Below, piece after piece: positions 1,650 to 41,425 of a DNA stretch of 42,621 nucleotides. The DNA is taken from contig JAFQDK010000020.1 in the NCBI GenBank assembly GCA_017399305.1, positions 1 to 42,621 of the forward strand, in the 5' to 3' direction. This DNA comes from Clostridia bacterium. GTDB taxonomy: Bacteria; Bacillota; Clostridia; Oscillospirales; CAG-272. The notes beneath the pieces were generated by a model. The model was not told the DNA's origin. It was given only the letters and a program-made list of their open reading frames with translations, and made no database searches. The first letter of the stretch is position 1. Each line of letters starts with the position of its first letter. A program made the translations under genes and the position numbers.

Positions 1650-2513
1650 ATGTCTGACGGCATCATTTACAGCTTTGGAACAGAGAAGTATGCATATGAG
1701 AATCTGCACTCTGAATATGAGGGTAATTTTTGTATAGAAAAAATGGGTATCACATATCCCGACAAGCGCTATCTCATAGACCGAGAGAATTATGGCAGAT
1801 ATTTTTACCGTCATATTTATGTGCTTGAATATGTAATCTCAGGCGAGGGATATGTTGAGTGTGATCACGAGGTATACAAAGTAAAAGCCGGCGATTTTTA
1901 TATGCTTTCTAGTCGTCATTTGCATCGCTATTATTGCAATCCTGACAATCCTTATTCAAAAATATGGATCAATGTTGGCGGTCGCTTGATGAATGAGATG
2001 ATGCAGCTTTATAATCTTCAAAGCGGCATTGTAATAAAGCAGATGAATTGCCGCAAGACATTCGATCTCATTTTTGATGAGTGTTCGCGTATCAACTGTG
2101 ATAACAAAGCAGAGATATATCGCAGTGTGTTTAAACTGATTGTGCGTTTGCTTGATCAGCTCACCAGTGATTCTGCCTGTGACATGCTTGCGCCTTCATC
2201 TTATAAAATCCGAGACTTTATTGATGCAAACATTCAGGCAGATATTTGTCTCGATGATATAGCAAGTAAGTTCTTCTTCAGTAAGTCGTATATCATCAGT
2301 TGTTTCAAGAATGAGTTTGGTATTTCGCCAAAGCAGTACATAATTCAAAAGAAGATTGAAACTGCAAAAAATATGTTGCTTGAAACGGATATGAGCATCA
2401 AGGCGATTGCCGAGATGCTACATTTTGCGGACAGTCACCATTTTTCAAATACGTTTAAAAAGCAGACAGGCACTGCGCCTGTTGAGTTCCGCATGAAAGC
2501 AGGCCAAAGCTAA
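1650..2513 (+). CDS. AraC-family transcriptional regulator with N-terminal cupin
   Basis: 287-residue DNA-binding regulator. The N-terminal half has the jelly-roll signature of AraC ligand-binding domains (YVISGEGYVECDHEVYKVKAGDFYML). The C-terminal ~100 residues carry two helix-turn-helix motifs: DICLDDIASKFFFSKSYIIS, and SIKAIAEMLHFADSHHFSNTFKKQTGTAP in outline. I chose ATG at 1650 because GGAGG at 1638-1642 lies 7 bases upstream; an in-frame TTG at 1602 has no ribosome site. The stop TAA is directly abutted by the ATG of the next gene, so the pair is one transcript. This group usually controls sugar use; the effector and targets here are unknown, and no sugar operon is adjacent. Confidence 0.88.
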   Translation: MSDGIIYSFGTEKYAYENLHSEYEGNFCIEKMGITYPDKRYLIDRENYGRYFYRHIYVLEYVISGEGYVECDHEVYKVKAGDFYMLSSRHLHRYYCNPDNPYSKIWINVGGRLMNEMMQLYNLQSGIVIKQMNCRKTFDLIFDECSRINCDNKAEIYRSVFKLIVRLLDQLTSDSACDMLAPSSYKIRDFIDANIQADICLDDIASKFFFSKSYIISCFKNEFGISPKQYIIQKKIETAKNMLLETDMSIKAIAEMLHFADSHHFSNTFKKQTGTAPVEFRMKAGQS

Positions 2514-3011
2514 ATGAATATTATTCTCATAGGTATGCCCGGTTGCGGCAAGAGTACGGTTGGAGTTGTACTTGCTAAAGTAATGGGTATGCATTTTTGC
2601 GACACGGATATTGTAATTCAACAGCGCGAAGGAAGAAAACTCCAAGAGATTATCAATACAGACGGAAATGATGCTTTTCTCGTTTGCGAGAAAAACGCGC
2701 TTCTTTCGCTTGATATTGATGATACTGTAATCGCCACGGGAGGCAGCGCGATATATTCCGATGAAGCGATGCAATATTTGAAAAAGAGCGGCAAGGTTGT
2801 TTATCTCAAGGTCAGCGAAGAGGAGATTGAGCGCCGCCTTGCTGACTTCGCGGCGCGCGGAGTCGCTATAAAGGACGGTATGACCGTAAAGGATTTATAC
2901 AACGAGCGCATTCCGCTTTATGAAAAGTATGCGGATATAACAGTAAAAGGCGAGGGAAGTGACATCCCGGCGGTAATCGGAAAGATTGCTGAAGAACTTG
3001 CAAGAATTTAA
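2514..3011 (+). CDS. Shikimate-kinase-family small-molecule kinase (atypical substrate site)
   Basis: 165-residue P-loop kinase of the AroK fold. Seen: Walker A GMPGCGKST at residues 7-15, D30-T-D32 of the substrate site, the ATGGS strand, and the lid/adenine region ending NERIPLYEKYADI. Two residues that bind shikimate in known enzymes differ. The Arg of the usual FRxxE motif is Leu here (AFLVCE), and the GGG loop is GGS. The fold is secure, the substrate is not; this may be a paralogue rather than the aromatic-pathway enzyme. It follows the AraC stop with no gap and is probably co-transcribed. No other aro genes are in the window. Confidence 0.75.
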   Translation: MNIILIGMPGCGKSTVGVVLAKVMGMHFCDTDIVIQQREGRKLQEIINTDGNDAFLVCEKNALLSLDIDDTVIATGGSAIYSDEAMQYLKKSGKVVYLKVSEEEIERRLADFAARGVAIKDGMTVKDLYNERIPLYEKYADITVKGEGSDIPAVIGKIAEELARI

Positions 3012-3051
3012 AATAACACCGCTTTGCGAAACAGCAAGGCGGTGTTATTTT
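3010..3051 (+). terminator. Intrinsic terminator after the kinase gene
   Basis: AAATAACACCGC (3011-3022) pairs with GCGGTGTTATTT (3039-3050), extended inward by TTGC/GCAA, and ends in a T run. Confidence 0.88.
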
Positions 3052-3105
3052 AGTGGTATAGGCGAGGCGGTGTTGACTGTCTCGCTGTTTTTGTATTATT
3101 TATAC

Positions 3106-3134
3106 TTGTTAAAATCATAAATATATGTTATTAT
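3106..3134 (+). promoter_or_regulatory. Putative promoter of the lipid kinase/polC operon
   Basis: TTGTTA (3106-3111), 17-base spacer, TATTAT (3129-3134), 36 bases before the ATG at 3171. Moderate match to sigma-A consensus. Confidence 0.6.
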
Positions 3135-3170
3135 AAATTATTAAGTATTATCAATGTGTGAGGTGCCACC

Positions 3171-4052
3171 ATGCTTAAAAAATTGATGCTTATTGTCAAT
3201 CCCGTTGCCGGAAAAAAGAAACTTAAAAATTTGCTTTTGGATGTTGTTGAGATCTTTGGTAAGGGTGGATATGCAACTACAGTTATGGTTACAGGACGTC
3301 GCGGTGAGGCAAGTGAATTTGCAGCTTTCGGCAATGATTTTGATATGATTGTATGCTGTGGCGGTGATGGTACTCTCAATGAGGCGATAAGCGGTATGTT
3401 GCAGAACAATATCACTATTCCTCTTGGATATATTCCCTGCGGAAGCACCAATGATTTTGCAAACAGTATGGGTGTGGAGCTGGATATTAAGAAATGTGCC
3501 GAATCAATCGCACTTGGAATGCCGCTTCCTCTTGATGTTGGAAAATTCAATGAAAGATTTTTTACTTATGTCGCATCTTTCGGTGCGTTTACCGCTTCCT
3601 CATATTCGGCACCGCAGAGCATAAAGAATGTTTTTGGTCACGCGGCGTATCTGTTTGAAGGCATTAAGGATTTGCAGAGTATAAAGCCCTATCACATGAA
3701 GTTTGTTGTTGACGACAAAGTTTACGAAGGCGATTATGTCTTTGGCGCGGTTGCCAACTCCACATCTTTTGGCGGAATAGTCAAACTTAAAAACGAGCTT
3801 GTTTCTCTTAACGACGGGCTTTTTGAAGTGTTGCTTGTAAAAATGCCAAAGAATATTGCTGATCTCAGTGTGATAATAAACGCGCTTACAACCAGCAATT
3901 ATGACAATGACCGCTTTGAGTTTTTCAAAGCGTCAAAGTTGACAATTTGTCCTCCAGGGGCTATGTCATGGTCGCTTGACGGAGAATATATGCACACCGA
4001 TGGAGATGTTACCGTTAATAATCTTCACGGTGCGGTTGATTTTGTAAAGTAA
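3171..4052 (+). CDS. Diacylglycerol/lipid kinase (DagK/YegS-BmrU family)
   Basis: 293-residue cytosolic or membrane-associated kinase that phosphorylates diacylglycerol or a related lipid, typically to return lipid to phosphatidic acid synthesis. Seen: N-terminal IVNPVAGKKK, the nucleotide-binding GGDGTLNEA at residues 64-72, IPCGSTNDFA at 88-97 (the conserved GTxNDxA-type loop), and the C-terminal SLDGEY strand. Length is normal for the family. Start ATG with GAGG 7 bases upstream. PolC begins 9 bases after the stop, so they form one transcript. The lipid substrate cannot be read from sequence. Confidence 0.88.
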   Translation: MLKKLMLIVNPVAGKKKLKNLLLDVVEIFGKGGYATTVMVTGRRGEASEFAAFGNDFDMIVCCGGDGTLNEAISGMLQNNITIPLGYIPCGSTNDFANSMGVELDIKKCAESIALGMPLPLDVGKFNERFFTYVASFGAFTASSYSAPQSIKNVFGHAAYLFEGIKDLQSIKPYHMKFVVDDKVYEGDYVFGAVANSTSFGGIVKLKNELVSLNDGLFEVLLVKMPKNIADLSVIINALTTSNYDNDRFEFFKASKLTICPPGAMSWSLDGEYMHTDGDVTVNNLHGAVDFVK

Positions 4053-4061
4053 GGATTTGTT

Positions 4062-7000
4062 ATGGCAAAAACATTATCAGAATATTTATATAAATACACG
4101 CCGTCGTGCCAACAGTATGCCGATATTTTGTCGGCAGGCGAGATTACGACTGTCCGTGCTGATAAAGAGCTGCGCATGCTTGAGGTAGGCGCAGCTTTTA
4201 AGGCTTTGGTAGAGAAGAAAGACCTCTATGCAGTGGAGCGTGAGATAGCAGCAGCTTATGCGTTGAACTCTGTGCGCGTTCTTCCTCACTATCCGTCTTC
4301 GCTGTTTACAAAGTCTTATATGAATTCGGTCCTGCTTGAAACCGAGCGTGTCGGAACAGTATCAAAGGGCTTTTTCAACTATGCTGACATACAGATAAAT
4401 GACGGTGAAATTGTAATTGAGATTCCTTTTGGCATGGGCGGTATTGGTTTGCTTGAAACTGCGCAAACTGCCGCAGTTATAGCCGGGATAATCAAAAGTG
4501 AATTTGAGCTTGACTTTAAAGTGGATATCCGAGCAAATGAAAATGCTGAGTATGTAGCGAGCCTGCACCGCTCGGCATTTGAAGAGGATCTCCGCCGTAT
4601 AGATGCTAACATTGCATTAGCACTTCAAAATGAAGCGGCAGCTGCGCCGCATCGTGACGCACCTTCGGAGGGGGCACCGGTGGCGGAGCGTTTGCCTATG
4701 ATTGACACTCTCAGCACTGAAGAACTTGAAAGCGAACAGATAAGTGAGAATGTTTACAAGAGCGGAAACATGACATTTGACGTTTCGGAAAGCTCCATTA
4801 TTCTCGGTGAGGAGTTTGAGTTTTCTACTCCTACTCCGATGCGTAAATTGCAGAGATTGGATGGCACAGTGCTTATTATGGGCAAGGTGTTTTCTATAGA
4901 GACCAAGGAAACGCGCAAGGGTGATAAAATCAATGTCACAATAGGCATTACAGACAATGATTCGTCGATATCTCTCCGCGGAGTTTTTCCGATAGAAAAG
5001 GCAGAGTTTGCCGGTAAAATGAAAATTGGCAAGAGCTATGCTGTTCTTGGTAAAGTCAAGATGGATACATTCTTCAATGAGCATGTTATGCGTCCTGTTC
5101 GTATTGCTGAGATAAAGCAGGTGCTTCGCAAAGATACTGCCGAGAAAAAGCGTGTTGAGCTTCATCTTCACAGTGTAATGTCGCAGATGGATGCAATAAT
5201 AGAGCCGTCCGAGCTAATTGCAACAGCAAAGCGATTCGGACATAAGGCCGTTGCAATTACTGACCACGGCAATGTACAGTCATTCCCCGAGATGATGCTT
5301 GCGGCAGAAAAACAGGGAGATATAAAGGTCATCTACGGTATGGAAGCATATTTTGTAGATGATACGGCGCGTGCAGTTTACGGCGAGAGCAGTGAGCCGC
5401 TCAACGGTGAATTTATTGTCTTTGATATTGAGACAACCGGTCTGTCCGTGGCGAATTGCGGAATCACCGAAATAGGCGCTGTAAAGATAAAAGGCAGTGA
5501 GATAATTGACCGGTTTAATATCTTTGTCAACCCGGAAATGCCAATTCCGCAGAACATCGTGGAGCTTACCGGTATCACCGATGATATGGTCAAGGATGCT
5601 CCAAAGATCGATGAGGCAATACCACAGTTTTTCGAGTTTTGCGGTGATCTCACGCTTATAGCGCACAATGCAAACTTTGATACAAGTTTTATCAGGGCTG
5701 CTGCAGAAAAACTCAAGATTCCGTTCAAGAATCCATATCTTGATACGGTTGCGCTTTCGCGATTTGCAAACCCCGAGCTGAAAAAGCATAAACTTGATAT
5801 ACTTGCTGATTATTACAAGCTTGGCGACTTCAATCATCACCGTGCTTGTGATGATGCGGAGATGCTCGCACATATTTATTTTAAGATGTCTGAAAAGATA
5901 ATGAACGAAGGCATCGGAGATCTTGGCGGAATCAACGCCGCGATGAGTGAACATTCCGATCCGCTTAAGCTTCGTACATATCACCAGATTATCCTTGTTA
6001 AAAATCAGGTTGGACTCAAGAATCTTTATCGTTTGATATCCGACAGTTATCTAAAGTATTATAAACGAAATCCGCGTATCCCTAAGACAGTGCTTGAGCA
6101 GTATCGTGACGGATTGATTATAGGTTCGGCGTGTGAAGCGGGCGAGCTTTTTATGGCGATACTTGACGGACAGTCGCAAGAGGAGATAGAGCGCATTGCA
6201 AACTTCTATGATTATCTTGAGATACAGCCTATATGCAACAACCGTTTCCTTATTGCTAACGGAAAAGTTGCAGATGAAGAGGGGCTGCGTGAGCTTAATC
6301 GCAAGATTGTTGCGCTTGGTAAAAAGCTTGGCAAGCCTGTTGTTGCCACCTGTGATGCACACTTTCTCAATAAAGAAGATGAGATCTACCGCAAGATTTT
6401 GCTTGCAGGCATGAAGTTTGCCGATGCCGACAGAGATATTGGACTGTATTTCCGCACTACAGACGAGATGCTTGAGGAGTTCTCTTATCTCGGCGAAGAA
6501 ACTGCGTATGAGGTAGTTGTAGAGAATACCAATCTCATCAACGATATGATAGAGGAGATACGCCCGATACCCAAGGGAACATACACTCCTAACATGGAGG
6601 GAGCAGAAGAGGATCTTCAGCGCATCTGTTGGGAGCGTGCGCGCTCTATCTATGGTGAAGATTTGCCTGAGATAGTTTCTCAGCGACTTGACAAAGAGCT
6701 GACATCTATCATAAAACACGGTTTTGCGGTGCTTTATATGATCGCGCAAAAGCTTGTTGCGTATAGTGAGAGCCAAGGATATCTTGTAGGTTCAAGAGGT
6801 TCTGTAGGCTCGTCATTCGTTGCTTCAATGGCGGGTATATCCGAGGTTAATCCTTTGCCTCCGCATTACGTGTGCCCAAAATGTAAATACAGTGAGTTCT
6901 TCACAGACGGTTCTGTTGGTTCCGGATTTGACCTGCCCGACAAGGACTGCCCGAAATGCGGCGGTCCTCTCATCGGTGAAGGACATGATATTCCGTTCGA

Positions 7001-28935: not shown

Positions 28936-29517
28936 TTACTCAAGCAATCCGTTTATCAGATTAAACAGTGTGGTTTCGTTCATTGCGCCGATGCGTGCAT
29001 CGTAGACCGAGCCGTCGGCATTTATCATTACCGTCACAGGGATTGAATATGTGCCGTAGGCGTTAGCCGCACTGTATTCTGTGTCAAAGAAAACAGGGAA
29101 GCTGTATCCGCCGTCACTCACAAATTTTCTGACTTTTTCTTCTGTATCCTGAACACCGTCTGTTAGGTTTACCATGAGGAATTCAATTTCTTCACCGTAC
29201 TCGGCATAGGCTTTGTCAAATGCAGGTAGCTCCGACTTGCAAGGGCCGCACCAAGTAGCCCAGAAATTAATTACAATAGGTTTGCCGAAGAAATCGGAGA
29301 GTTTTACCTTGTTGCCGGAGTAGTCGGTGACGGTAAAATCAGGAGCCATTATTTTTTCTTCGGTTGTAGCCGCACTGCCTTCTGCGACTGTGGTTTCTGC
29401 AGGTACAAAATCATCTGGAGAGTATTGCTCAGACAGGTTGTTATATGCGAATACTGCAATAACTATAAGCACAATCAGAGCCGCAAGCAGAATTATGATA
29501 GCAATATTTTGTTTCAT
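28936..29517 (-). CDS. Membrane-anchored TlpA-family thiol-disulfide oxidoreductase
   Basis: 193-residue thioredoxin-fold protein exposed outside the membrane. Seen: N-terminal membrane anchor residues 5-25, an acidic/Thr-rich linker (about 30-55), then the AhpC/TlpA domain APDFTVTDYSGNKVKLSDF, active site W89-C90-G91-P92-C93, and the cis-Pro loop YSIPVTVMI. Both catalytic cysteines are present. ATG at 29517 was chosen with AGGGG 6 bases upstream; an in-frame start at 29607 would overlap ccdA and lacks a ribosome site. Its gap to ccdA is 8 bases, so CcdA is the likely electron donor. Confidence 0.92.
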   Translation of the reverse strand: MKQNIAIIILLAALIVLIVIAVFAYNNLSEQYSPDDFVPAETTVAEGSAATTEEKIMAPDFTVTDYSGNKVKLSDFFGKPIVINFWATWCGPCKSELPAFDKAYAEYGEEIEFLMVNLTDGVQDTEEKVRKFVSDGGYSFPVFFDTEYSAANAYGTYSIPVTVMINADGSVYDARIGAMNETTLFNLINGLLE

Positions 29518-29525
29518 AATTACCC

Positions 29526-30182
29526 CTAAATTGTAAAAATTGAAAGTAGCCTTGTCATTAGACCAAAGCACATTGAAATGCCGACAATGATAAGAAAGAT
29601 TCCGCAAACGGTATTGATAATCTTATAGTGCTTCTTTATAAAGTTGAATGCACCGCTTAACTGTTTTATCAGCACTGCGGAAATCAGGAAAGGCAGACCG
29701 AGACCAAGCGAGTATGTTACAAGCAACAGCGTGCCGCGCAGCGCCGTACCCGATACAGCCGCCTGTGCCAGAGCTGAACTTAAAAATGCACCGATACACG
29801 GTGTAAGGCTGACAGAATAAACTATGCCGAAAAGGAATGCCGAAACTACAGTTGATGCATTGTGACCACGCGTGATACCTTTAAATATCGGAATGTGTAT
29901 TATTTCAAGATAACTAAGACCAAAGATTATAACCAGAATACCTGTAGCGATGTTTACGGCTGTCTGATATTTTCTGAGCAGAGCGCCGAGTGTTCCTGCT
30001 CCAAGCCCCAGCAGGCTGAATACAATAGTGAAGCCAAGCACAAATGCAAGAGCACGTATCAACACGCGATGCCGTTTGTCCGCACCGCCGGCAAAATACG
30101 AAATGTATATTGGCAACATAGGCAGCATACATGGGGATATAAACGAGATAATTCCCTCAAGAAAAGTAATCAAAAAATCCAT
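29526..30182 (-). CDS. ccdA: CcdA-type transmembrane thiol-electron carrier
   Basis: 218-residue membrane protein of the DsbD/CcdA family with six predicted helices, which passes electrons from cytoplasmic thioredoxin across the membrane. Seen: the first conserved cysteine in SFISPCMLPMLPIYISYF and the second in SLTPCIGAFLSSALAQA, each with flanking prolines as in the family. Length is normal. It starts 3 bases after the stop of the NifX-like gene and is followed by the TlpA-like protein, forming a complete redox relay to the cell exterior. Confidence 0.93.
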   Translation of the reverse strand: MDFLITFLEGIISFISPCMLPMLPIYISYFAGGADKRHRVLIRALAFVLGFTIVFSLLGLGAGTLGALLRKYQTAVNIATGILVIIFGLSYLEIIHIPIFKGITRGHNASTVVSAFLFGIVYSVSLTPCIGAFLSSALAQAAVSGTALRGTLLLVTYSLGLGLPFLISAVLIKQLSGAFNFIKKHYKIINTVCGIFLIIVGISMCFGLMTRLLSIFTI

Positions 30183-30185
30183 AGC

Positions 30186-30578
30186 TTATTTCGAATGGCA
30201 GTTGCCGCCGCAAGAGTGGTTGTTGCAATCATGGTCGCCGTGATCGTGGTGGTCACAGTGAACCTCGGGGTCATATTCAAGCTTGCCCGCCATAAAAGAA
30301 TGTACAGCAATATCTGCATTGCCACTGACACCGCCGTAAATAGTAATACCAACTTCTTCAAGCGCTTTTTTAGCACCTGCACCGATTCCGCCGCAGATAA
30401 GCGTGTCAATATCATGAGCGGATAAAAATCCGGCAAGCGCACCGTGACCGCTGCCGAGAGTCGGAAGAATCTTCATAGTCACGATTTTGTTGTTTTCTAT
30501 TTCATAAAATTTAAAAGCATCTGCATGTCCGAAATGTCCGAAGATATTCTCATTTTCAAAAGGAATGGCGATTCTCAT
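30186..30578 (-). CDS. NifX/NifB-type metal-cluster-binding protein with His/Cys-rich tail
   Basis: 130 residues. Residues 1-105 form the dinitrogenase iron-molybdenum cofactor domain (PF02579): MRIAIPFENENIFGHFGHAD, then GALAGFLSAHDIDTLICGGIGAGA. No nitrogenase genes are in the window, and such stand-alone members occur widely in anaerobes. The tail (about 107-130) is exceptionally rich in His, Cys and Asp (CDHHDHGDHDCNNHSCGGNC), a probable metal store or metal-sensing tail. ATG preceded by GGAGG. First gene of the operon with ccdA and the TlpA-like gene, which suggests a link between metal handling and extracytoplasmic thiols. Confidence 0.88.
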   Translation of the reverse strand: MRIAIPFENENIFGHFGHADAFKFYEIENNKIVTMKILPTLGSGHGALAGFLSAHDIDTLICGGIGAGAKKALEEVGITIYGGVSGNADIAVHSFMAGKLEYDPEVHCDHHDHGDHDCNNHSCGGNCHSK

Positions 30579-30625: not shown

Positions 30626-30662
30626 AAAAAATAAAAGGGGAAATTTATTTTCCCCTTTTATC
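30626..30662. terminator. Terminator of the glycyl-radical operon
   Basis: AAAAGGGGAAA and TTTCCCCTTTT around TTTAT; on the minus strand it is followed by ATTTTTTG. It separates the 1047-residue gene from the NifX-like operon. Confidence 0.9.
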
Positions 30663-30665
30663 ACT

Positions 30666-33600
30666 TTATTTAACTATAATAACAGGCCATGTAGCAGTAT
30701 TGCTGAGAGCCGCGTTTGAGAAGGTATCGGAAACTTTGCTCTCGTTTTTGTCCTGATTGTAGAGAGTTGCATTCACGCTGATTTGCTTTGATGTAAACAG
30801 CGACATAGGAATTGCTATCTCAATTACACTTCCTTTATCGGTATCGTTAGGGGCATTGACTGTGCCGATGTTGGTGGCAGCAAAATCAAGTGTGCTTGTA
30901 TCACACTTTTCAAGTGTTTCACCAGAGCGGACAAACTCTTCGATGCCGCCGTTAGTAAGTCTTATACGCAGGAATCCGTCCATGCCTTCTTCTGACAGGT
31001 ATAAAGTTATGCTGTCGCCATTGGTGATAGAGTAGTCTGCGCGTTCAATAAGCAGATAAAGTTTATTGTCGTTGACAGCCGCGCGAATAGACGCTTGCGC
31101 CTGAGATTCACTGCCGATGAACAATGCTTCGGTGTTTACGCCCCACTCCTTGGTATCGCCGTCAAGAGTGATAGTATTGTTTGCGGCGGTTATTGCATGA
31201 TTGAGATAGAGTGTACCTATCATGATAGAGTTTGAACCACTTGAAACAATATTTGCCATCGAACCGATAGCAGAGTGTGAGGTGCGCTTCTCAAGCGTGC
31301 CCCAGTAACCTGTTTTTGTGAAAGGAACAATTGAATTACCGAAGTTTTCGCCGTTTGTATCGCCGATACGAACAGAGAAACGGTTGTTTACGTTATAAGA
31401 AAGCAATGTTTCGCCAGAATCAAATTGCAGGATATAGGGGGCAGCGCCCTCAAAAATATTATCTGCACGTTTCGCAGGACCTACGTCGTCAATTCCAAGC
31501 GTGGTTTGCCAATTGTCAGCTGAATAGCCAAGCGAGATATAAAGCTCGCCTGCATCGGGACGTGACTCTACAGCCATGACAGATGTGCCATTGTTGAGAT
31601 GTGCAACCGAAGGCATCTGGTCGGTGTAGAGCGTTGATATTGCGGCAACTTTACGTCTTTGCTGCATTACGATGCTTGCGCTGTAAGGTGCTTCCTTGAC
31701 ATCAGGTGTCCATGTGTCGCCGTTGTCAGAGGAACGAAGCATGCCGACGCCACTTGAGAGATAGTCTGGGTCAAGCTTACCGTCGAGATAGAATTTGGGT
31801 GCGTTGTGGGTAAAGAATATTTGCACTTCACCGTCTTTTGTCTGGGTGATATAAGGCTCCCAGTTGATACCAACATAGATTACCTTTTCGTCACTCCAGG
31901 TCTTGCCGTTGTCAGAAGAACGGCGCATTGCAAGCCCACCTTGCGATGCATCAATTCCATAGCCGAGATTGTATCTGTATGATGCAACGGCAAGAATGTC
32001 GCCATTGGCAAGAACTACAGCATCGCATGTTGAATAGCGGAGAGCATCCTGCGCACCTTTGATGTTGGTTACAGCATTGGTTTTGAAGAGAACCTCAGCC
32101 TTTGCCCAGTTGAGAGTGTCTTTGCTGGTTGTGAAATAAATATTTGAGCCTATCTGACCATTCTGGTAAAAGAGTATGTATTCGCCGTTTGCCATCTGTT
32201 TGATACGCGGATATGTTGCGCTGCTTGTCATCAGGACAGTGGCAGGAACTTCTACGTATTCGCGAAAGTTAAGCTCTACAGAGCTAAAATTTGAAAGACC
32301 CTCGTGCGAATCGGCAGAGGGCTTTTCGGTGTTGAGCTCAGCAATAGTGTGAAGCTTGATTCCGGATGTAACGGTTTGAGAAACCTGAGGAGCCGCGTCA
32401 GCGACTCCTATCTTTGTGAGAGTTGCGGTTGAGGTTGCTCCGTCCCACTGGATATCCTCGTTTTTAACGCCGAGAGCATTTGCAATTGCACGTACGGGCA
32501 GGTATGTGCGATTGTTTTCGATAATAGCTGGCGAGTCAAGCAATACCGCCTCGCCGTTTACTACCATAGCAAGCGCGTTTATTGTGATACTGATGGTAAC
32601 TTCAGAGTTTGTGAGGGTGGCTGTGCGGGTTTGTGCATCCCACTTGATGCCTTCGTTAGGAACGCCAAAAGTATTGGCAAGAAAACGTACGGGCAACATT
32701 GTGCGGTCGTTTTTGATTATCGGAGGTGCATCAAGTGTAACCGCTTCGTCATTGATATAAGCTGTAGTCTGACCGATTGTCATTTTTACAATTGTCTTGA
32801 CTTCGGGGGCAGGTTCTTCGCCTTCTTTAAGTACAGTATCAAACTGTTCGCTTATAGTAGCAAAGTTAGCAGCTTTTGCAGTTTCATCAGAATAGAAAAG
32901 TGTTTTTCCGTTTGAGAAGATAACATCATTGCCGCTTGCGAATTTGTCGGAATATTTACCAACGGTTCCGCCGAGCCAGTTGAAGGTAATACCTTCTGCA
33001 AAGCCGGTGGAAGTTGATGCATATACTTCACCTATTTTGGCATTATCTTTAACAGTGAGAACGGTTGTGCCGCAGGTGTAAGGCTTGTTTGCAGGTGTAA
33101 GGAACAGTCTGCCTACTTCAGCATCTCCGCCAACTGTTACATTTGCGGTTCCCATATAGTATGCGCCGTCAATCTGACGTGAGTATGCTGAAATGCATAT
33201 CTTGCTACCACTGAGAACGGTGATGTTGATATCGGTTTCATCTTCTGCAGGGGGAGGATCTTTAACACCGCGAAGCTCAGGCTGACCGGACTGATAGCCG
33301 CCCAGAATACCAAATGCTGTGCCAAATCCGAGACCGTCTGTTGCAGGATTCTCGGTGATTATATTTACGCCGGTATCAACTGTAAAGGGATTGTGGTTGG
33401 CGATGACAAACATATATTTACCGGAAAGGCGGATGTCTATATCCTTGAAAATATATTCACCGCTACAGACAAAACGTGCACCAACACATTCATATTCAGC
33501 ACCGTAGTTACGGTAGTCTATGCCGCCGTAAACGCTGGTGAGTGTAATAGAGCCTGTGAATTCTTCAGGGTATGCGAAGATACCTGTCTGCGAGAATTTG

Positions 33601-33809
33601 CCGCAGACAACGATGGTGCAATCCTGAGTTTTGTCAAGAAGTTCAACCGCTTTGCCAAGCGATCCTACAGGGCTGTTTTCGCTTTCGCCGTTTCCGTTTG
33701 CGCCGGCCTCAAGGTAAACAACTGTCATACCTTCTTCGGCCGAAACCGAAACGGACATAAGTCCGATGAGAAGGCAAAGGGAAAACAGGAGAATCAGTAT
33801 TTTTTTCAT
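30666..33809 (-). CDS. Secreted multidomain protein with stalk domains and Asp-box (sialidase-like) propeller
   Basis: 1047 residues. Signal peptide 1-24 (ends SVSVSA). Residues ~28-320: beta-strand-rich, pectate-lyase/beta-helix-like. About 340-466: two successive copper-amine-oxidase-type stalk repeats (LDAPPIIKNDRTMLPVRFLA and LDSPAIIENNRTYLPVRAIA). About 510-860: a propeller with two Asp-boxes, SSDNGKTW (~629-636) and SSDNGDTW (~691-698), as in exo-sialidases and related hydrolases. About 878-1047: a CBM9/DOMON-like sandwich (LDGDTKEWG). No C-terminal anchor is seen; the stalk repeats may hold it to the wall. It begins 16 bases after the activase stop with AAAGGAA upstream, so it is in the glycyl-radical operon. 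The sialidase substrate is unproven; Asp-boxes occur in other enzymes and in binding proteins. Confidence 0.8.
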   Translation of the reverse strand: MKKILILLFSLCLLIGLMSVSVSAEEGMTVVYLEAGANGNGESENSPVGSLGKAVELLDKTQDCTIVVCGKFSQTGIFAYPEEFTGSITLTSVYGGIDYRNYGAEYECVGARFVCSGEYIFKDIDIRLSGKYMFVIANHNPFTVDTGVNIITENPATDGLGFGTAFGILGGYQSGQPELRGVKDPPPAEDETDINITVLSGSKICISAYSRQIDGAYYMGTANVTVGGDAEVGRLFLTPANKPYTCGTTVLTVKDNAKIGEVYASTSTGFAEGITFNWLGGTVGKYSDKFASGNDVIFSNGKTLFYSDETAKAANFATISEQFDTVLKEGEEPAPEVKTIVKMTIGQTTAYINDEAVTLDAPPIIKNDRTMLPVRFLANTFGVPNEGIKWDAQTRTATLTNSEVTISITINALAMVVNGEAVLLDSPAIIENNRTYLPVRAIANALGVKNEDIQWDGATSTATLTKIGVADAAPQVSQTVTSGIKLHTIAELNTEKPSADSHEGLSNFSSVELNFREYVEVPATVLMTSSATYPRIKQMANGEYILFYQNGQIGSNIYFTTSKDTLNWAKAEVLFKTNAVTNIKGAQDALRYSTCDAVVLANGDILAVASYRYNLGYGIDASQGGLAMRRSSDNGKTWSDEKVIYVGINWEPYITQTKDGEVQIFFTHNAPKFYLDGKLDPDYLSSGVGMLRSSDNGDTWTPDVKEAPYSASIVMQQRRKVAAISTLYTDQMPSVAHLNNGTSVMAVESRPDAGELYISLGYSADNWQTTLGIDDVGPAKRADNIFEGAAPYILQFDSGETLLSYNVNNRFSVRIGDTNGENFGNSIVPFTKTGYWGTLEKRTSHSAIGSMANIVSSGSNSIMIGTLYLNHAITAANNTITLDGDTKEWGVNTEALFIGSESQAQASIRAAVNDNKLYLLIERADYSITNGDSITLYLSEEGMDGFLRIRLTNGGIEEFVRSGETLEKCDTSTLDFAATNIGTVNAPNDTDKGSVIEIAIPMSLFTSKQISVNATLYNQDKNESKVSDTFSNAALSNTATWPVIIVK

Positions 33810-33825
33810 TACAATTTCCTTTCGA

Positions 33826-34725
33826 TTATCTTAAAACTTTTACGCCGTGTGACTCAAGCACTGCACGAGCATTTTCGGCATCTTCTTTTGAGGGGATAGG
33901 CGCATCGGTTTCGCTGAGCGAATAATTCATGTCAAGGGAGTTGTATTTTGTTCCTGAAAGGTTATGATACGGAAGTACCTTTGCGCCTTTCAGCGATTTT
34001 ATTGTAGATAAAAATGTTGCTATTTTTTCGATTTCACCTGCATTCTGATTTGGTACAAAAGGTATGCGAACCTCCATCGGAATGCCGAGTGAGTCAATAT
34101 AGCGGATGTTGTCAAGGATTATGTCATTGAATTGACCTGTAAGCTCCTTGTGCAGATCGCGGTCAATTGCCTTGACGTCGACCAAAAATGTGTCAGTGTA
34201 TGGTATTACCTTTTCGAGCTGTTCACGCGATGCAAAAAGGCAGGTGTCAACTGCGGTGTTTATTTCGTTTTCTTTAAGTAGCTTCAATACCTCAGATGTG
34301 AAATCTGCCTGAAGCAATGGTTCGCCGCCGGAGATTGTAACGCCGCCGCCGGAATTTTTGTAAAACTCTTTGTCAGCAAGAAGCTTTGGCAGAATTTCAT
34401 CAGGGGTAACTCGCTGACCGTAGAATATAAGCGCATCGGCAAGGCAAACGCTTTCGCACTTGCCGCAGGCTTTACACTTTTCGCGGTCAAACTTGTGTCC
34501 GTCATCGCTGATGCTGTGTGCACCGCTTGGGCATTCTGCAACGCACTTGCCGCATCCGATGCATTTGTGCTCGTAGTATCCAAGCTCAGAGCTTGTCGAA
34601 ATGCTTTCGGGATTGTGGCACCACTTGCATTTTAAAGGGCATCCCTTTACAAAAAGTGTGGTGCGAAGTCCATCGCCGTCGTGAATCTCAAATCTTTTTA
34701 CATTTACTATTCTACCGAGAGTCAT
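33826..34725 (-). CDS. Glycyl radical enzyme activase (radical SAM)
   Basis: 299-residue enzyme that installs the glycyl radical on its partner. Seen: radical-SAM cysteines C29, C33 and C36 in GCPLKCKWCHNPE. They are followed by an inserted two-cluster ferredoxin domain, CIGCGKCVAEC (C55, C58, C61, C65) and CKACGKCESVC (C84, C87, C90, C94), then SGGEPLLQ. The ferredoxin insert is typical of activases for enzymes other than pyruvate formate-lyase (family knowledge). ATG at 34725 was chosen with GGAGG upstream; it shares one base with the enzyme's stop (TGATG). An ATG at 34749 would overlap further and has no ribosome site. Confidence 0.94.
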   Translation of the reverse strand: MTLGRIVNVKRFEIHDGDGLRTTLFVKGCPLKCKWCHNPESISTSSELGYYEHKCIGCGKCVAECPSGAHSISDDGHKFDREKCKACGKCESVCLADALIFYGQRVTPDEILPKLLADKEFYKNSGGGVTISGGEPLLQADFTSEVLKLLKENEINTAVDTCLFASREQLEKVIPYTDTFLVDVKAIDRDLHKELTGQFNDIILDNIRYIDSLGIPMEVRIPFVPNQNAGEIEKIATFLSTIKSLKGAKVLPYHNLSGTKYNSLDMNYSLSETDAPIPSKEDAENARAVLESHGVKVLR

Positions 34726-36917
34726 CAGTGTACCTCCGCATTTTCGCATTGGCGTATGAGGTCGTTTTGTTCGGTTTCGGAAAGTTCAACAAAGTATACA
34801 TTCCAGCCGCAAAGGCGAACCTGTAATGTTGCGTATTTTTCGGGTTCTTTCTGTGCCGCGCGCAGTACATCGGGGGACATTACATTCATCTGTATTGCAA
34901 AGCCGTTACGCTGCATATAAGTGGATACCAGCGCACACATCGCGGTCATACCAGCATCACCCTCTGCGGCACTGCTGTGAAGCATAATGTCAAGTACAGT
35001 TCCGTCAGGAACTTTGGTGAAGTCGATTGTTGTTACCGTCTGTATAAGTGCGGTTACGCCCTCTTTGTCCATCGCGGTTACAGCCCCCATGTTCTTTGAG
35101 AGCATTTCGCCTGCCATACGTCCGTCTGGGGTAGCGCCTGTGCGCTCACCGAAAGCAATTCGGTAGTCGATTGAGAACAGGCCAAGGCGGAATACGCCAC
35201 CGCGGTTGTTGGGCTTGCCGTTCACACAACTACCGGCAAAGTCAACCAGTTCTTTTGCAATGTCATCCGGCTCTTTAAGACCATTACCATATTTAGGCAT
35301 CGTGCGAAGCACTTCGCGGTGAAGCTGTTCGTGGCCCTCCCAGTTGTTTGCAAGAATCTTGGCAAATTCGGAGAGTGTGAAGCTCTTTTCTTCGTACACA
35401 AGATGCTTTACCGCCACCAGTGCATCGGCGGTAGTAGCCACGCTGAACGCAACAATAGATGAGTTGCAGTATTTAGCACCGTGGTCATACGCATCTCTGC
35501 CGTTTTCAATGCAGGGTGCAAATGTGGAAGAAAGCAGGGGTGCCTGGCTTACAGTGGGATAATACTTTTCATATTCAAGGATAAGATCCATTGCACCGTC
35601 GATAAAAGCACCGATCTGTTCTTTGACTGCCGCAAAGAATTCATCAAAGTTTTTATAAGAATTCGGATCAGCAGTTACACGACCGATAGTTTTGCCCGAA
35701 TATGCATCATAACCGCCGTTCATTACGGTAAGAAGTGCTTTTGTCATATTGGCACGACCTGCACAGGTGCAGGGGATTTCATTGCCCTGCGCACATGGCT
35801 CATAGCAACCGATAATGATGTAATTGCGTGCATCTGCAGGATCTTCGCCGATGTTGACAAGCGCCTTTTCGATAACATTGTCGTTTACAAAAACAAAGCT
35901 GTTTCTGCCGTTTCTTACTGACTCAAGCACAAGGCGGATAAACTTTTCGGGCATCTCGTTGTACCAGCGGATGTGTATTTTGGGGTCATTAATGTTAAGT
36001 GACGAGTATTCTTCAACAATGAGGTATGAAAGATCGTTGATAGATGAAGAACCGTCAGCAAGACGACCGCCGAGGAAGAAAGGAATGTTGGCAGTTACTT
36101 TTATCGAATAGAGTTTGAAGAAGAAATAGCGGAAAAGTTCACGTATTTCAGCTTCGCTGAATGTGCCATTTTCGATATCGTTTTTGTAGAAGTGGAAGAG
36201 AAGACGGTCAAGTCCACCAAGTGAGCGGATAGGCTCACCCTCAACAAAGGTCTGCAAATTGTAGTAAATCATTATAAGCTGTATAGCTTCAAGAATGTTG
36301 CCGGGGGCACCTACAGCAAGGTTGCGAAGGCTTTTTGCAACAAGCGCAGATTTGCCGCTTCCTGTTTTCTCAGCAGCATCAGCTAATCTGTTTACAAGAG
36401 TAATTGTTGCGCTGAGCACTGTTTCGCAGCAATCATAAAAGGTGCACTGATCTTCGCTGAGGCCGTCTTTTGCGCGTGCGTTTTTTACACGTTCAATAAG
36501 TCCGGTAAGACCAAGCTCAAGGATTGCATTCCAGTCGGGTGCACAGTGACCAAGGTCGAGGTTGCCGGTATATGCAAGACTGTCCTGCTCAGCTTCATGT
36601 TCTGCCAGCTTTTCAGGTATAGTGTAGCGGCGAAGAGCGCGGATCCAGCGATCACGAATACGTGCAATGATTTTGTCATGTCTGAGTCGCTCAGGGAAAA
36701 AGTCTTCTCCACGCACATCAAGCTGCGCGTTCTCAAGAATGTATTTAAACATCAAAGATTTAGCAATAATGCGAGGTTTGGATTCGTTATCTTTTTCGAT
36801 TTCAAGACAACCGTTAAGCAGTTCTTCACCTGTAACACCGCTATTTGCGTCCCAAATGGGCTTCGAGTACATAGTGCTGATTGATTCACGGTCTTTTTCA
36901 AAGTTTCCAAAAATCAT
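34725..36917 (-). CDS. Glycyl radical enzyme, GCYEP subclass, substrate unknown
   Basis: 730-residue oxygen-sensitive enzyme of the pyruvate-formate-lyase/diol-dehydratase fold. Seen: active-site loop IIIGCYEPC with Cys371 and Glu373, and the glycyl-radical loop VRLCGWNVYF with Gly704, 26 residues from the end as expected. The single Cys followed by x-Glu matches lyases/dehydratases, whereas pyruvate formate-lyase has Cys-Cys. The middle residue is Tyr rather than the Val usual in characterised dehydratases (GCVE). It is shorter than most (about 780-850). Its activase is directly downstream, a secreted Asp-box protein follows, and an AraC regulator is divergent. Those neighbours suggest catabolism of a compound freed from an external glycan (inference). 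No microcompartment genes or aldehyde dehydrogenase are nearby. Confidence 0.93.
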   Translation of the reverse strand: MIFGNFEKDRESISTMYSKPIWDANSGVTGEELLNGCLEIEKDNESKPRIIAKSLMFKYILENAQLDVRGEDFFPERLRHDKIIARIRDRWIRALRRYTIPEKLAEHEAEQDSLAYTGNLDLGHCAPDWNAILELGLTGLIERVKNARAKDGLSEDQCTFYDCCETVLSATITLVNRLADAAEKTGSGKSALVAKSLRNLAVGAPGNILEAIQLIMIYYNLQTFVEGEPIRSLGGLDRLLFHFYKNDIENGTFSEAEIRELFRYFFFKLYSIKVTANIPFFLGGRLADGSSSINDLSYLIVEEYSSLNINDPKIHIRWYNEMPEKFIRLVLESVRNGRNSFVFVNDNVIEKALVNIGEDPADARNYIIIGCYEPCAQGNEIPCTCAGRANMTKALLTVMNGGYDAYSGKTIGRVTADPNSYKNFDEFFAAVKEQIGAFIDGAMDLILEYEKYYPTVSQAPLLSSTFAPCIENGRDAYDHGAKYCNSSIVAFSVATTADALVAVKHLVYEEKSFTLSEFAKILANNWEGHEQLHREVLRTMPKYGNGLKEPDDIAKELVDFAGSCVNGKPNNRGGVFRLGLFSIDYRIAFGERTGATPDGRMAGEMLSKNMGAVTAMDKEGVTALIQTVTTIDFTKVPDGTVLDIMLHSSAAEGDAGMTAMCALVSTYMQRNGFAIQMNVMSPDVLRAAQKEPEKYATLQVRLCGWNVYFVELSETEQNDLIRQCENAEVH

Positions 36918-37012
36918 GATGTCTCCTCCAAAATAATTTTGTTTACATTTTTAGAGTATAACACTGAATCAATTTTGTAAATGCATCTTTCGGCTTTATT
37001 TGTATTTTTCGG

Positions 37013-37041
37013 TTGAAAATTTTAGTTTTTCTGCTTAATAT
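37013..37041 (+). promoter_or_regulatory. Promoter of the divergent AraC regulator
   Basis: TTGAAA (37013-37018), 17-base spacer, TAATAT (37036-37041). The glycyl-radical operon promoter lies in the same gap; TTTACA/TATACT with a 15-base spacer, minus strand 36981-36955, is the weak best candidate. Confidence 0.65.
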
Positions 37042-37093
37042 CTTGATTTTGTTTGCATTTTTTGATTAAATTATAGTGAAAGAAGGTGTTGTC

Positions 37094-37909
37094 GTGCAAA
37101 CAGATGAAATGCAACTTTGTAATGTACGTCCTGCGGTTTGTCGTTTTCACCAAGCGGTTGAGGGACGGATAACAAGACGGTTTTACCCGACAAAACAGGT
37201 TGGCAGACCGTCTGACGGCTTTATATATGTTACTGAAGGAAAAATGCGTTATCGTTTTTTGAACGGGAACACAATAGATGTATCTTCAGGTGATGTGTTA
37301 TTTTTAAGCCGTGGCAGCATATATTCTATGGAGCTTATGTCTGACTGTTATAAATATGTGTTTGCAGATTTTGATTTTGAAGATGGCGTCTGCTTGACAA
37401 GCGTTGCTTTTTCTATGCAGAGCTTCAGAGGAATAGAAAGTCTGTTTCGACGTATGCTTGAAAAATGGAGATTGCAAAAACTGGCGGTGAATGAGGATTG
37501 TATGGCAATTCTTTATTCTATTTACGCTGAGATTCTTCGTGCGCAGAGTGTTGCATATATCCCATTGGCGAAACGAACACGCCTTGATGCGGCAGTGCAG
37601 TTCATTTCAGAAAATTTTGCAGACGAATCTCTCACCGTTGAAAGCGTAGCGGCAACGGCCGCTATGAGTGAATCGCATTTTCGCAGGTTGTTTAAAAGCA
37701 CATATCAAGTTTCGCCTGTTAAATATATTAATCTTATTCGCATAAACCGTGCAAAAGAGCTGATACGTTATAGTAATACATCTTTTTCACAGATAGCGCT
37801 TGATACCGGGTTTGCCAATCTTTATTATTTCAGCCGCATATTTAAAAAGGAAGTCGGCTGCACTCCCAGCGAATATCGCGAAGCATACAGCGACTATCAG
37901 GAAACATAA
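37094..37909 (+). CDS. AraC-family regulator, probable controller of the glycyl-radical operon
   Basis: 271 residues. N-terminal cupin-like sensor (FIYVTEGKMRYRFLNGNTIDVSSGDVLFL in outline, about 38-66). C-terminal double helix-turn-helix: SLTVESVAATAAMSESHFRR and then SFSQIALDTGFANLYYFSRI, ending GCTPSEYRE. Start is GTG at 37094 with AGAAGG 7 bases upstream; the in-frame GTG at 37076 lacks a ribosome site. Its divergent position suggests it senses the substrate or product of the glycyl radical pathway and activates that operon (inference from layout). Confidence 0.88.
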   Translation: MQTDEMQLCNVRPAVCRFHQAVEGRITRRFYPTKQVGRPSDGFIYVTEGKMRYRFLNGNTIDVSSGDVLFLSRGSIYSMELMSDCYKYVFADFDFEDGVCLTSVAFSMQSFRGIESLFRRMLEKWRLQKLAVNEDCMAILYSIYAEILRAQSVAYIPLAKRTRLDAAVQFISENFADESLTVESVAATAAMSESHFRRLFKSTYQVSPVKYINLIRINRAKELIRYSNTSFSQIALDTGFANLYYFSRIFKKEVGCTPSEYREAYSDYQET

Positions 37910-37991: not shown

Positions 37992-39299
37992 TCAATACTG
38001 TCCGGTTATTCGGTTATACCATCCTTGTCTGGCAACGCATCGTTTTTCAAACTCATTCAAGGTATCTACAAATTCAGAAGGCAATATTGAATTTATTGTT
38101 TCGATATGGGATAAGTCTATAGGGAAGTTGAATTTTCCGCTATCGCAATCTTCTTTGCTGTAATATACCCATGCAATCGAGCCTGTAATTGCCGCAAGAG
38201 TGTCGGTGTCACCGCCAAGCGATACAGCGTTTCGTATCGCATCTTCAAAGCTTTCAGACTCCAAGAATGCAATAATCGCTTGCGGAACAGTATCTTGACA
38301 AGTTTCGTTGAATTCGTATGACTTACGTATTTCGTCTACGGTTTTGTCCAAGGGATAGAATTTATCGGATATATATTTTCTGATTTCGTCTTTCGATTTG
38401 CATGTTTTTGCCATGAAAATAGCGGCGGCAGTTGCCTTAGCCCCTTTGATGCCCTCGGGATGGTTGTGTGTTACACTTGCCGAAATTTCTGCAAGTTCCA
38501 AAGCCTCTTGCAGTTCAACCGCATATATAGCACATGGGGATACACGCATTGCAGAGCCATTGCCAAAACTGTTGTAAGGAGAGGGATTGTTGCTTAAAAT
38601 CCACTGCTCAAATCTTCCGCCGTATCCTCCTTGCGGATGAGGATATTTGCGACCCAAAGTTTTCATTTCCTCAATCAAAGTATTATAAAACTCTGTGTGT
38701 TTTCCATTTGCGTTCATTAAAGCTCTTGCAACTGCAATGGTCATGATTGTATCATCGGTATAGCTGCAGCCGTCTGATAAGAATGGAAACTCTTTTGTCT
38801 TTATATTGTTAAATTCATATTTTGAGCCAACTATATCTCCTATTATCGCACCGTATATACGCGAGTTGTCGGTAGACAGCAGCAATATCGCTTGCGCATA
38901 TTTTTCAGCTCGAGCAATGTCCCTTTCGCTTATGACATCAAGGCGTGACATGTCGCTGTTATGCCTGAGGTCAGCTAATTTGATCTTTTTTGCAGTGCTT
39001 GAGCACCGTTTTATTCTGGCAACATAATCCATGTATGGCATGTTATCATCGTGTGTCAGCAGGGAAATGGCATAAATAATATCATCATTAAATCCCATTT
39101 CTTTTAGCTGATCTAATGTGATGTCTGTGTCCTCGACCACATCGTGTAATAAAGCAACGCAAATTTCATTTTCGGTGTCCATCTGTTCTGCCAGGTGGAA
39201 TGGGTGGTAGATGTATGGAAGTCCTGTTTTGTCAACTTGATCCTTATGAGCTTCGAAAGCTACTTTTAAAGCCTTTTTCGTTAATTCGGTATATAACAT
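37992..39299 (-). CDS. Fusion: SpoT/Mesh1-like HD hydrolase plus ADP-ribosylglycohydrolase
   Basis: 435 residues with two apparently complete enzyme domains. Residues 1-145: RelA/SpoT-type HD phosphohydrolase, with His32 (YHPFH), H52-D53 in ALLHDVVEDTD and the downstream LADLRHNSDMSRL, the pattern of (p)ppGpp hydrolases; there is no synthetase domain. Residues 148-435: ADP-ribosylglycohydrolase (DraG family): YGAIIGDIVGSKYEF, SYTDDTIMTIAVA (D182, D183), SFGNGSAMRVSP, THNHPEGIKGA, and metal ligands SLGGDTDTLAA (D364, D366). One continuous frame, no frameshift at the junction. Monocistronic with its own promoter; ATG preceded by GAGGTG. It may reverse two nucleotide signals, alarmones and ADP-ribosylation; actual substrates are not known. 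Confidence 0.9.
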   Translation of the reverse strand: MLYTELTKKALKVAFEAHKDQVDKTGLPYIYHPFHLAEQMDTENEICVALLHDVVEDTDITLDQLKEMGFNDDIIYAISLLTHDDNMPYMDYVARIKRCSSTAKKIKLADLRHNSDMSRLDVISERDIARAEKYAQAILLLSTDNSRIYGAIIGDIVGSKYEFNNIKTKEFPFLSDGCSYTDDTIMTIAVARALMNANGKHTEFYNTLIEEMKTLGRKYPHPQGGYGGRFEQWILSNNPSPYNSFGNGSAMRVSPCAIYAVELQEALELAEISASVTHNHPEGIKGAKATAAAIFMAKTCKSKDEIRKYISDKFYPLDKTVDEIRKSYEFNETCQDTVPQAIIAFLESESFEDAIRNAVSLGGDTDTLAAITGSIAWVYYSKEDCDSGKFNFPIDLSHIETINSILPSEFVDTLNEFEKRCVARQGWYNRITGQY

Positions 39300-39928: not shown

Positions 39929-41425
39929 ATGAAGAAGAAAATCATAATTATCTCGGTGATGCTTGTTATACTCAGCGCTTTGTTTATCACTGTTTCGGGT
40001 TCAATGCTTACTATGTACGGTCCTGACGGTGTACAAACTTCTGTTTTTCCGTATGAAGTTACTGAGTATAAGGCGGCCGGCTGGTATGAGAATGAGAGCG
40101 ATGTTATAAGAACAATGTACGGTGCTGACGGCAGTGAAATCACTGTATATCTTTCGGAAGTATATGACCGTATAGATTCAGGCTGGTTCCTTAATAAAAG
40201 CGATGCTGAGAGGACTCTTTACGCGGCAGACGGAACAGAGAAGGTTGTTTTTCTGGCTGAAGTAGCTGAGAATGTAAAGAACGGTTGGTACGAGAATAAA
40301 AGCGACATTGAAAAGACAATGTATGCTACCGACGGAACAGAAAAGACTATTTACATTGCTCAGATAGAAGAATTCAAGGCTGATGGTTGGTATGAAAGCA
40401 AAGAAGAAGTCATAACGACCATGTATGGTCCGGATGGCGTTACTGTCCCTGTATTTCTTGCAGATATAGAAGAGTATAAGGCTGCAGGCTGGTACGAAAA
40501 CAAGAGCGATGTAGAAAGAACTCTTTATGATATTTACGGTACTGCAAAGACCGTATACCTCACTCAGGTAGAGGAGCACAAACAAAACGGCTGGTATGAG
40601 GATACAAGCTCGATCACTATCACTATGTATGCCGATGACGGTAGCGAAACCTCTGTTTTCCTTGGTAAAATTGATGACTACAGAGCAAACGGATGGCATA
40701 GCGATAAAGCATCGGTAACCGCCGCGGTAATAAAGGGTGGGCAGCGCAAGACTATATACAAGTCACAACTTCAGAGCTATCTTAATGATGGCTGGGTTCG
40801 TTTGCAGGACAACAAAGCAAACCCCTCAAAACCCATGGTTGCACTTACATTTGATGACGGTCCAAGACCTGCATCCACCGGTCGAATCCTCAATGTTCTT
40901 GAAAAATACAATGCAAGAGCTACATTCTTCGTTGTCGGCAACTTCGCCGTAAACAATTCAAGAATTCTTAATAGAATGGTTAGTATGGGATGTCAGATAG
41001 GCAATCATACATACACTCATCCCAATCTCAAATATCTTTCGGCTCAGGGCGTGCTTTCCGAGATAAACAGAACTGCAGAAGTTATAAAGAATGCGGTTGG
41101 TTTTTATCCTACAGCAATCAGACCGCCGTACGGTTCTTATGGTGATACCGTTCGCAAGGTGACAGAGCAGCCTTTGATACTTTGGTCGATAGATACGCTT
41201 GACTGGCAGCATCGAAACACAAACAAGATAGTAGATGCTATACTCAACAATGTACGTGACGGCGACATTATTCTTATGCACGACCTTTACGACACAACTG
41301 CAGCAGCAGTTGAGATCGTTGTACCGATACTTGTGTCGCGCGGATATCAGCTTGTGACAGTTGAGGAGCTTGCGGCATGCCACGGTGGTATGTCGGCGCA
41401 TAGAGCATATCATTCATTCAGATAA
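39929..41425 (+). CDS. Surface polysaccharide deacetylase (NodB domain) with eight 34-residue repeats
   Basis: 498 residues. A signal anchor at 5-25 is followed at about 26-285 by eight repeats of about 34 residues with consensus TMYG.DG....VFL.EVEEYK..GWYENKSDV; the last is degenerate. Residues about 300-485 are a NodB carbohydrate esterase (CE4) with TFDDGP (D309, D310), metal ligands H360 and H364 in HTYTHPN, RPPYGSYG, WSIDTLDWQ and ILMHDLY. All expected CE4 motifs are present, so it should remove acetyl groups from peptidoglycan or a chitin-like polymer outside the cell. The repeats are probably a wall-binding or spacer module. ATG with GAGG 10 bases upstream. Single gene between its promoter and terminator. 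Confidence 0.93.
   Translation: MKKKIIIISVMLVILSALFITVSGSMLTMYGPDGVQTSVFPYEVTEYKAAGWYENESDVIRTMYGADGSEITVYLSEVYDRIDSGWFLNKSDAERTLYAADGTEKVVFLAEVAENVKNGWYENKSDIEKTMYATDGTEKTIYIAQIEEFKADGWYESKEEVITTMYGPDGVTVPVFLADIEEYKAAGWYENKSDVERTLYDIYGTAKTVYLTQVEEHKQNGWYEDTSSITITMYADDGSETSVFLGKIDDYRANGWHSDKASVTAAVIKGGQRKTIYKSQLQSYLNDGWVRLQDNKANPSKPMVALTFDDGPRPASTGRILNVLEKYNARATFFVVGNFAVNNSRILNRMVSMGCQIGNHTYTHPNLKYLSAQGVLSEINRTAEVIKNAVGFYPTAIRPPYGSYGDTVRKVTEQPLILWSIDTLDWQHRNTNKIVDAILNNVRDGDIILMHDLYDTTAAAVEIVVPILVSRGYQLVTVEELAACHGGMSAHRAYHSFR

Follow-up and report, generated by a model that had tools for sequence, protein, structure and literature searches.

Layout of the operon

The window analyzed here, i.e., the whole 42,621-nucleotide stretch of contig JAFQDK010000020.1 from a Clostridia bacterium (assembly GCA_017399305.1), carries a real and compact operon of an apparently undescribed subclass of glycyl radical enzyme (GRE). 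On the minus strand, from position 36917 down to 30630, we read the gene of a 730-residue GRE, the gene of its activase, a gene for an exported protein of 1047 residues, and a hairpin with a T tail, with the gene of an AraC-type regulator pointing the other way upstream (Table 1). A preliminary description, made from the sequence alone, had proposed this very arrangement, and all of its elements were recovered as claimed, including C371-Y-E373 and G704 in the GRE. The enzyme exceeded the Pfam cut-offs for both the pyruvate formate-lyase (PFL)-like domain (349 bits) and the Gly_radical domain (68.7 bits). The ATG of the activase shares one base with the TGA stop codon of the GRE (TGATG, at 34725) and is preceded by GGAGG, with the mechanically called open reading frame (ORF) beginning 24 nt before this chosen start; its product gave Pfam Radical_SAM and ferredoxin-cluster matches. 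A gap of 16 bp separates the activase gene from that of the exported protein, the export signal of which was read by eye from its sequence. The stem of the terminator was the longest of 15 stems on both strands between 30400 and 37300 (7.3 expected from shuffles).

Table 1. Features of the GRE operon and its upstream region, in coordinates of the window.
Feature	Position	Strand	Basis
GRE of the GCYE/CGWN group, 730 aa	34725..36917	-	ORF; Pfam PFL-like and Gly_radical; below NCBIfam cut-offs
Cys loop G370-C371-Y372-E373-P374	35796..35810	-	Position computed from ORF; group residue counts
Gly loop R701-L-C703-G704-W705-N706	34800..34817	-	Group residue counts
Codon of group-specific R231, on the strand carrying HypD D278 / CutC T334	36225..36227	-	R in 58/59 of the group, 0/24 other GREs
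Radical SAM activase, start at 34725 (longer ORF to 34749)	33826..34725	-	TIGR02494 325 bits, cut-off 174; TGATG overlap
Exported 1047-aa protein	30666..33809	-	ORF, Pfam; orthologs in the same place in L120, L121
Intrinsic terminator closing the operon	30630..30662	-	14-pair stem, T tail
Divergent AraC-type regulator	37076..37909	+	HTH_18 84.7 bits; cupin match below threshold
Intergenic region common to GRE operon and AraC gene, 158 bp, likely operator	36918..37075	.	Sequence read; role suggested by layout

Relation to other glycyl radical enzymes

Gut GREs are known mainly for choline, hydroxyproline, diols, sulfonates, and aryl acetates. Many abundant ones are without a known function, according to a review (PMC11574389). 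The enzyme of the window has the features by which the superfamily is recognized, namely a PFL-like domain, a C-terminal glycyl radical domain, a mid-chain Cys, and a motif of the RVxG[FWY] type (RLCGW in the window; motif as worded in PMC11528403). When scored against NCBIfam, it stayed under the cut-off of every model it matched, nine for GRE enzymes and three for GrcA. The highest-scoring of these was the general PFL2-3 subfamily / PFL2/glycerol dehydratase model TIGR01774 (365 bits vs a cut-off of 678), and for the equivalogs HypD, CutC, HpfG, HpsG, PRK09983, HPAD, IAD, and PFL it reached at most 311 bits vs cut-offs of 994 to 1150. For 23 members of the group to which the enzyme belongs, even the best E-values against the NCBIfam GRE models were far from the cut-off scores. 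Among solved chains, the highest score was 278 bits by single sequence and 467 bits by group profile.

The trees gave the same picture. In a FastTree phylogeny of 59 GREs, the group formed a clade of 35 tips with a support of 0.999, and in an IQ-TREE phylogeny of 86 GREs (300 iterations at most), 62 group members and a near relative, L071, were held together by an ultrafast bootstrap of 100. The exact monophyly of the 62 alone received a support of only 57, because L071 may fall inside the group; it has C703 but not Tyr372, Arg231, Trp705, or Asn706. In neither tree did any of the references, i.e., three CutC, three HypD, E. coli PflD and YbiW, and the genome's own PFL, fall within the group. 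For glycerol and propanediol dehydratase, IslA, HplG, and the succinate synthases, the comparison was by score on solved chains rather than in the trees; for HPAD, IAD, HpsG, and HpfG, it was by NCBIfam model, with a solved chain as well for HPAD. Clustering inside a characterized subclass, which the preliminary description had named as refuting its view, was thus not seen for the subclasses tested. PflD and YbiW, both annotated as putative, are also GREs whose loci are linked to sugars (frw PTS genes; fsaA), but they differ from the group by C-V-E / C-I-E in the Cys loop and by RVAGYS. Two GRE fragments shorter than 600 aa (L043, L045) were omitted from the FastTree phylogeny and included in the residue counts below.

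Membership of the group was assigned by a 600-bit rule on a model trained on the group itself, so that the score gap is partly circular. A family-level search of 146 genomes found some match at E ≤ 1e-60 in 56 and a best match at E ≤ 1e-110 in 21, each of which had at least one match inside the group. When the class was searched with a group alignment of 23 rows (E ≤ 1e-180), carriers numbered 15 among 291 genomes, the window's own included, and came from eight families of this one class. All genome searches were made within the phylum, and a sample of 299 of its genomes held one carrier, the window's own. Of the three GREs encoded in that genome, one is the enzyme of the window, one is of the PFL type with Cys-Cys, and the third is of the GCVE type. 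We found no published description of the GCYE/CGWN group in searches of the open-licence literature.

Radical loops and substrate pocket

Residue counts over 59 group sequences and 24 other GREs yielded a simple fingerprint, a Cys loop GCYE and a Gly loop R[VLI]CGWN. C371 is present in all 59 members and Glu373 in 56, being absent from three. Position 372 is Tyr in 54 of the 59 and in none of the 24 others (Asn in four members, Trp in one), which makes the Tyr in the Cys motif, singled out in the preliminary description, a trait of the group. On the Gly loop, the radical G704 is invariant, as is W705 (1/24 outside), and C703 and N706 each occur in 55 members (1/24 and 0/24 outside, respectively). 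The group thereby differs from the aminoacyl radical enzymes, where Ala, Ser, or Thr takes the place of the radical Gly. The two radical-carrying loops of GREs face each other and both are changed here, so that Tyr372 has its counterpart in the changes on the Gly loop; the Cys-loop and Gly-loop changes may be coupled.

A C-x-E Cys loop defines the GRE eliminases in PMC8473560, and the chemistry of the window enzyme is likely of this class. It had been claimed beforehand that characterized dehydratase/lyase members carry GCVE and that PFL has Cys-Cys. The latter is seen in the same genome's own PFL-type enzyme; the former does not hold as a universal statement, as isethionate sulfite-lyase has C-I-E (PMC8473560).

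The substrate-contacting residues of CutC, HypD, and IslA, as given in that paper, were followed on a joint alignment, where, as a control, all expected HypD and CutC marker residues were recovered in the references. The strand-1 His (H124 in the window, HypD H160, CutC D216) is kept in 57 of 57 group sequences. The aromatic residue that stacks on choline or hydroxyproline (CutC F395, HypD F340; PMC8473560) corresponds to N277 in the window; the site is aromatic in 0/59 group members, with N in 28 and G in 20 (48/59 in all), vs 9/24 of the other GREs. The S334/F389 segment (S334 in HypD) is absent from 58 of 59 members, and HypD R156 is not kept. Furthermore, the site of HypD D278 is Q in 27/59 of the group and Pro in the window, and that of HypD Y450 / CutC Y506 is R388 in the window (Y in 19 and R in 15 of the 59). 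Arg231 is found in 58/59 members (0/24 outside) and Asp121 in 57/57 (1/24 outside). On its strand, Arg231 is two residues away from the HypD D278 / CutC T334 site and hence plausibly points into the barrel. Taken together, a kept His and C-x-E, a missing stacking aromatic, and Arg231 suggest that the substrate is polar, perhaps anionic, and has no cationic head.

Operon partners and candidate function

Context was counted for the 59 group GREs, with loci L120-L124 left aside. Among the 52 GREs that have at least 1.2 kb of upstream sequence, 40 have a divergent AraC gene no more than two genes upstream; among the 52 that have at least 1.5 kb downstream, 41 have an activase no more than six genes away, in 35 cases in the same-strand run. 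The recurrent unit of the group is GRE, activase, and divergent AraC. Five loci (L036, L040, L099, L114, and L121) carry two different group GREs for a single activase, with a second divergent AraC gene between the two GREs in L036 and L121; two enzymes adjoining one activase are also described for the Thr-type aminoacyl radical enzymes (PMC11528403). No gene for a bacterial microcompartment shell protein (PF00936, E ≤ 0.01) was found in seven genomes, six of them less than 90% complete, in agreement with the earlier reading that such genes are lacking nearby.

At some loci, in the window's own family and in others, SGNH-like or SASA esterases, an EamA transporter, or an SMP-30 lactonase sit between GRE and activase, several with overlaps of 1 to 4 bases. 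Here, the SGNH assignment stands on a Pfam match below threshold and a solved putative hydrolase (E 8e-11). GH43, GH3, GH28, and GH106-like genes, a rhamnose isomerase gene, and sugar-isomerase-like genes occur at single or few loci. Unnamed neighboring ORFs are unreliable, several long automatic ORFs being antisense to real genes (e.g., L035 13073-15436). We likewise left unused the label SBPlike for lipoproteins of ~500 aa, since the members tested had no Pfam, PDB, or NCBIfam support bar one SBP_bac_1 match below threshold. Separately, L047 encodes (2064-4667, plus strand) an 867-aa protein that unites, as an in-frame fusion, an AraC-type helix-turn-helix domain (residues 8-98) and an entire GRE (PFL-like 165-711, Gly_radical 748-848), i.e., a DNA-binding domain on a radical enzyme; an activase-like gene follows.

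The exported protein comprises an N-terminal part without a Pfam match, a pair of Cu_amine_oxidN1 repeats (110 bits), a BNR_2 sialidase-like propeller part, and a C-terminal part again without a Pfam match. BNR_2 scored 34.3 bits on the propeller stretch alone (cut-off 31.4) and 31.2 in the whole protein, the Asp-box model PF02012 stayed under its cut-off, and the best solved sialidase matched the propeller part weakly (E 0.0012 by single sequence, 0.00035 by profile). Of six genomes sampled from the genus, five have the window-type GRE, and three of these have the exported gene in place. In G725 (L120:5174-8263; GRE ~69% identical), GRE and activase are followed after 27 bp by a 1029-aa ortholog at 62% identity. 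In G726 (L121:1097-4411; GRE 54%), the order is GRE, AraC, a second group GRE, activase, and a 1104-aa ortholog that overlaps the activase gene by 4 bp and has two parts that match the window protein, one at 54% and the other at 47%. Where the other two proteins carry Cu_amine_oxidN1 repeats, that of G726 gives an S-layer homology match (21.5 bits vs a cut-off of 20.8), which hints that these repeats may be a surface anchor and the two modules interchangeable. The remaining two genomes, G091 and G030, have GRE, activase, and AraC, followed by different genes. An initial reading from L034 and L035, that the exported gene is not conserved, was ruled out by the two further genus orthologs in place. 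In the tree, the window genome and G725 are sisters, joined by G091/G030 and then by G726, so that ancestral presence with one loss in the G091/G030 lineage is the simplest history.

Hence, the exported partner is genuine and limited to part of one genus among the genomes searched. The preliminary description had taken this gene to be co-transcribed with the GRE and had asked whether the gene order recurs: the linkage stands in two congeners, where orthologs follow the activase, and the order in three of five genus genomes. The gene is missing in the other two and lies outside the unit that recurs in the wider group, which for part of the relatives is what that description had itself named as speaking against its view. 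In G725, the gene directly behind the exported one resembles type I 3-dehydroquinase and is accompanied by a divergent AraC gene of its own (L120:3366-5141). A quinate or chlorogenate substrate, considered from this gene and the esterases, was dropped as a single occurrence.

The best explanation of these data, which we hold tentatively and as somewhat short of an even bet, is a substrate-inducible catabolic operon built around an uncharacterized GRE eliminase that acts on a polar, probably anionic small molecule derived from a glycan. The activase would place the radical on G704, from where it would move to C371, and the GRE would then perform a 1,2-elimination, most likely a loss of water. 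Its substrate may be small, polar, probably negatively charged, and glycan-derived, e.g., a sugar acid, and could be held in part by Arg231; the exported protein would bind or cut the parent glycan at the cell surface, and the AraC regulator would sense a sugar-like compound. A bolder and rather doubtful version holds that the GCYE/CGWN enzymes perform a kind of radical elimination that is new for GREs, with a sugar acid or another anionic carbohydrate of this sort as the substrate. They would be anaerobic B12-free dehydratases/lyases fed by surface glycan-processing proteins, and the loop changes (Tyr by C371; Cys-Gly-Trp-Asn at the radical Gly, with Cys directly before Gly) would mark a changed radical relay. 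The operon partners suggest which compounds to test. If the substrate is glycan-derived, a carbohydrate route would be added to the GRE superfamily.

Several points weigh against this picture. We infer both the substrate and the reaction from sequence, and the pocket roles from alignment; that the substrate is polar or anionic and comes from a glycan is a reasoned guess. The Tyr kept at the Y450/Y506 site in 19/59 members indicates that the pocket is not uniform. Each of the four partner families is scattered, occurring in 3 to 7 of 59 operon runs (EamA 7, SGNH 4, SASA 4, SMP-30 3), and none was seen in the operons of the window, L034, L035, L120, or L121. Same-strand zones of 4.5 kb downstream, 11% of the DNA, held 8, 5, 5, and 3 relatives of EamA, SGNH, SASA, and SMP-30 vs 0, 3, 1, and 1 elsewhere, an enrichment that is biased upward because the families were chosen from the neighbors, and the carrier genomes are rich in glycan genes. 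Lastly, G091 and G030 (~75% and 84% complete) have no ortholog of the exported protein elsewhere, their best propeller matches (35% and 39%) being at the level of paralogs.

The last point bears on an unlikely yet serious alternative, in which a large family of paralogous surface proteins has supplied the exported protein as a passenger and the GRE acts on an ordinary cytosolic metabolite with no link to glycans. Relatives of its propeller-plus-C-terminal part do form such a family, with 9 places in the window genome and 12 in G114 (E ≤ 1e-40), and the whole protein has 83 matches in the window genome (E ≤ 0.01); its absence from two genus relatives fits this idea as well. However, among 12 genomes searched, orthologs (66% and 56% identical in the propeller-plus-C-terminal part) occur only behind this activase, in all three genomes having one and once with the 4-bp overlap, other matches reaching at most 42%, and the tree favors a loss in the G091/G030 lineage.

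It is improbable that the enzyme belongs, in diverged form, to one of the known dehydratase subclasses (glycerol/propanediol, hydroxyproline, or sulfopropanediol) and acts on its known substrate. HypD, the best group-profile match among solved chains (467 bits), has in common with it the fold family, C-x-E, the strand-1 His, and an activase of its own. The B12-independent glycerol dehydratase is marked by His164, His281, and Asp447, the latter two of which bind the substrate. Its chain (PDB 1r8w), the top solved match by single sequence (278 bits), likewise has C-x-E and a His, H164, equivalent to H124. Of these three residues, only H164 has a kept equivalent, H281 aligning to E228 or P229 and D447 to C385 of the window. 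Moreover, the window enzyme reaches at most 311 bits vs the 1000-1100 cut-offs of the HypD and sulfopropanediol models (307 vs 1100 for HypD), the best E-value of the HypD model over 23 members is 1e-107, and the aromatic that stacks on the substrate is missing.

A 2-ketoacid formate-lyase with PFL-like C-C cleavage, as the name of the Pfam domain and two matched NCBIfam models named formate C-acetyltransferase would have it, is very improbable given C-x-E in place of the Cys-Cys pair, a score of 112 bits vs the PFL cut-off of 994, and a separate PFL-type enzyme with Cys-Cys in the same genome.

Further genes of the window were noted. Downstream of the terminator on the same strand (28936-30578) lie genes for a dinitrogenase-cofactor-like protein whose tail is rich in His and for a membrane protein of the DsbD type, as well as an ORF in which we read a WCGPC motif. 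A polysaccharide deacetylase is encoded at 39929-41425, the N-terminal half of which consists of imperfect repeats around TMYGPDG...GWYEN, with none reported at the DNA level by a tandem repeat finder. The gene at 37992-39299 encodes 435 aa and combines an HD domain with one of the ADP-ribosylglycohydrolase type.

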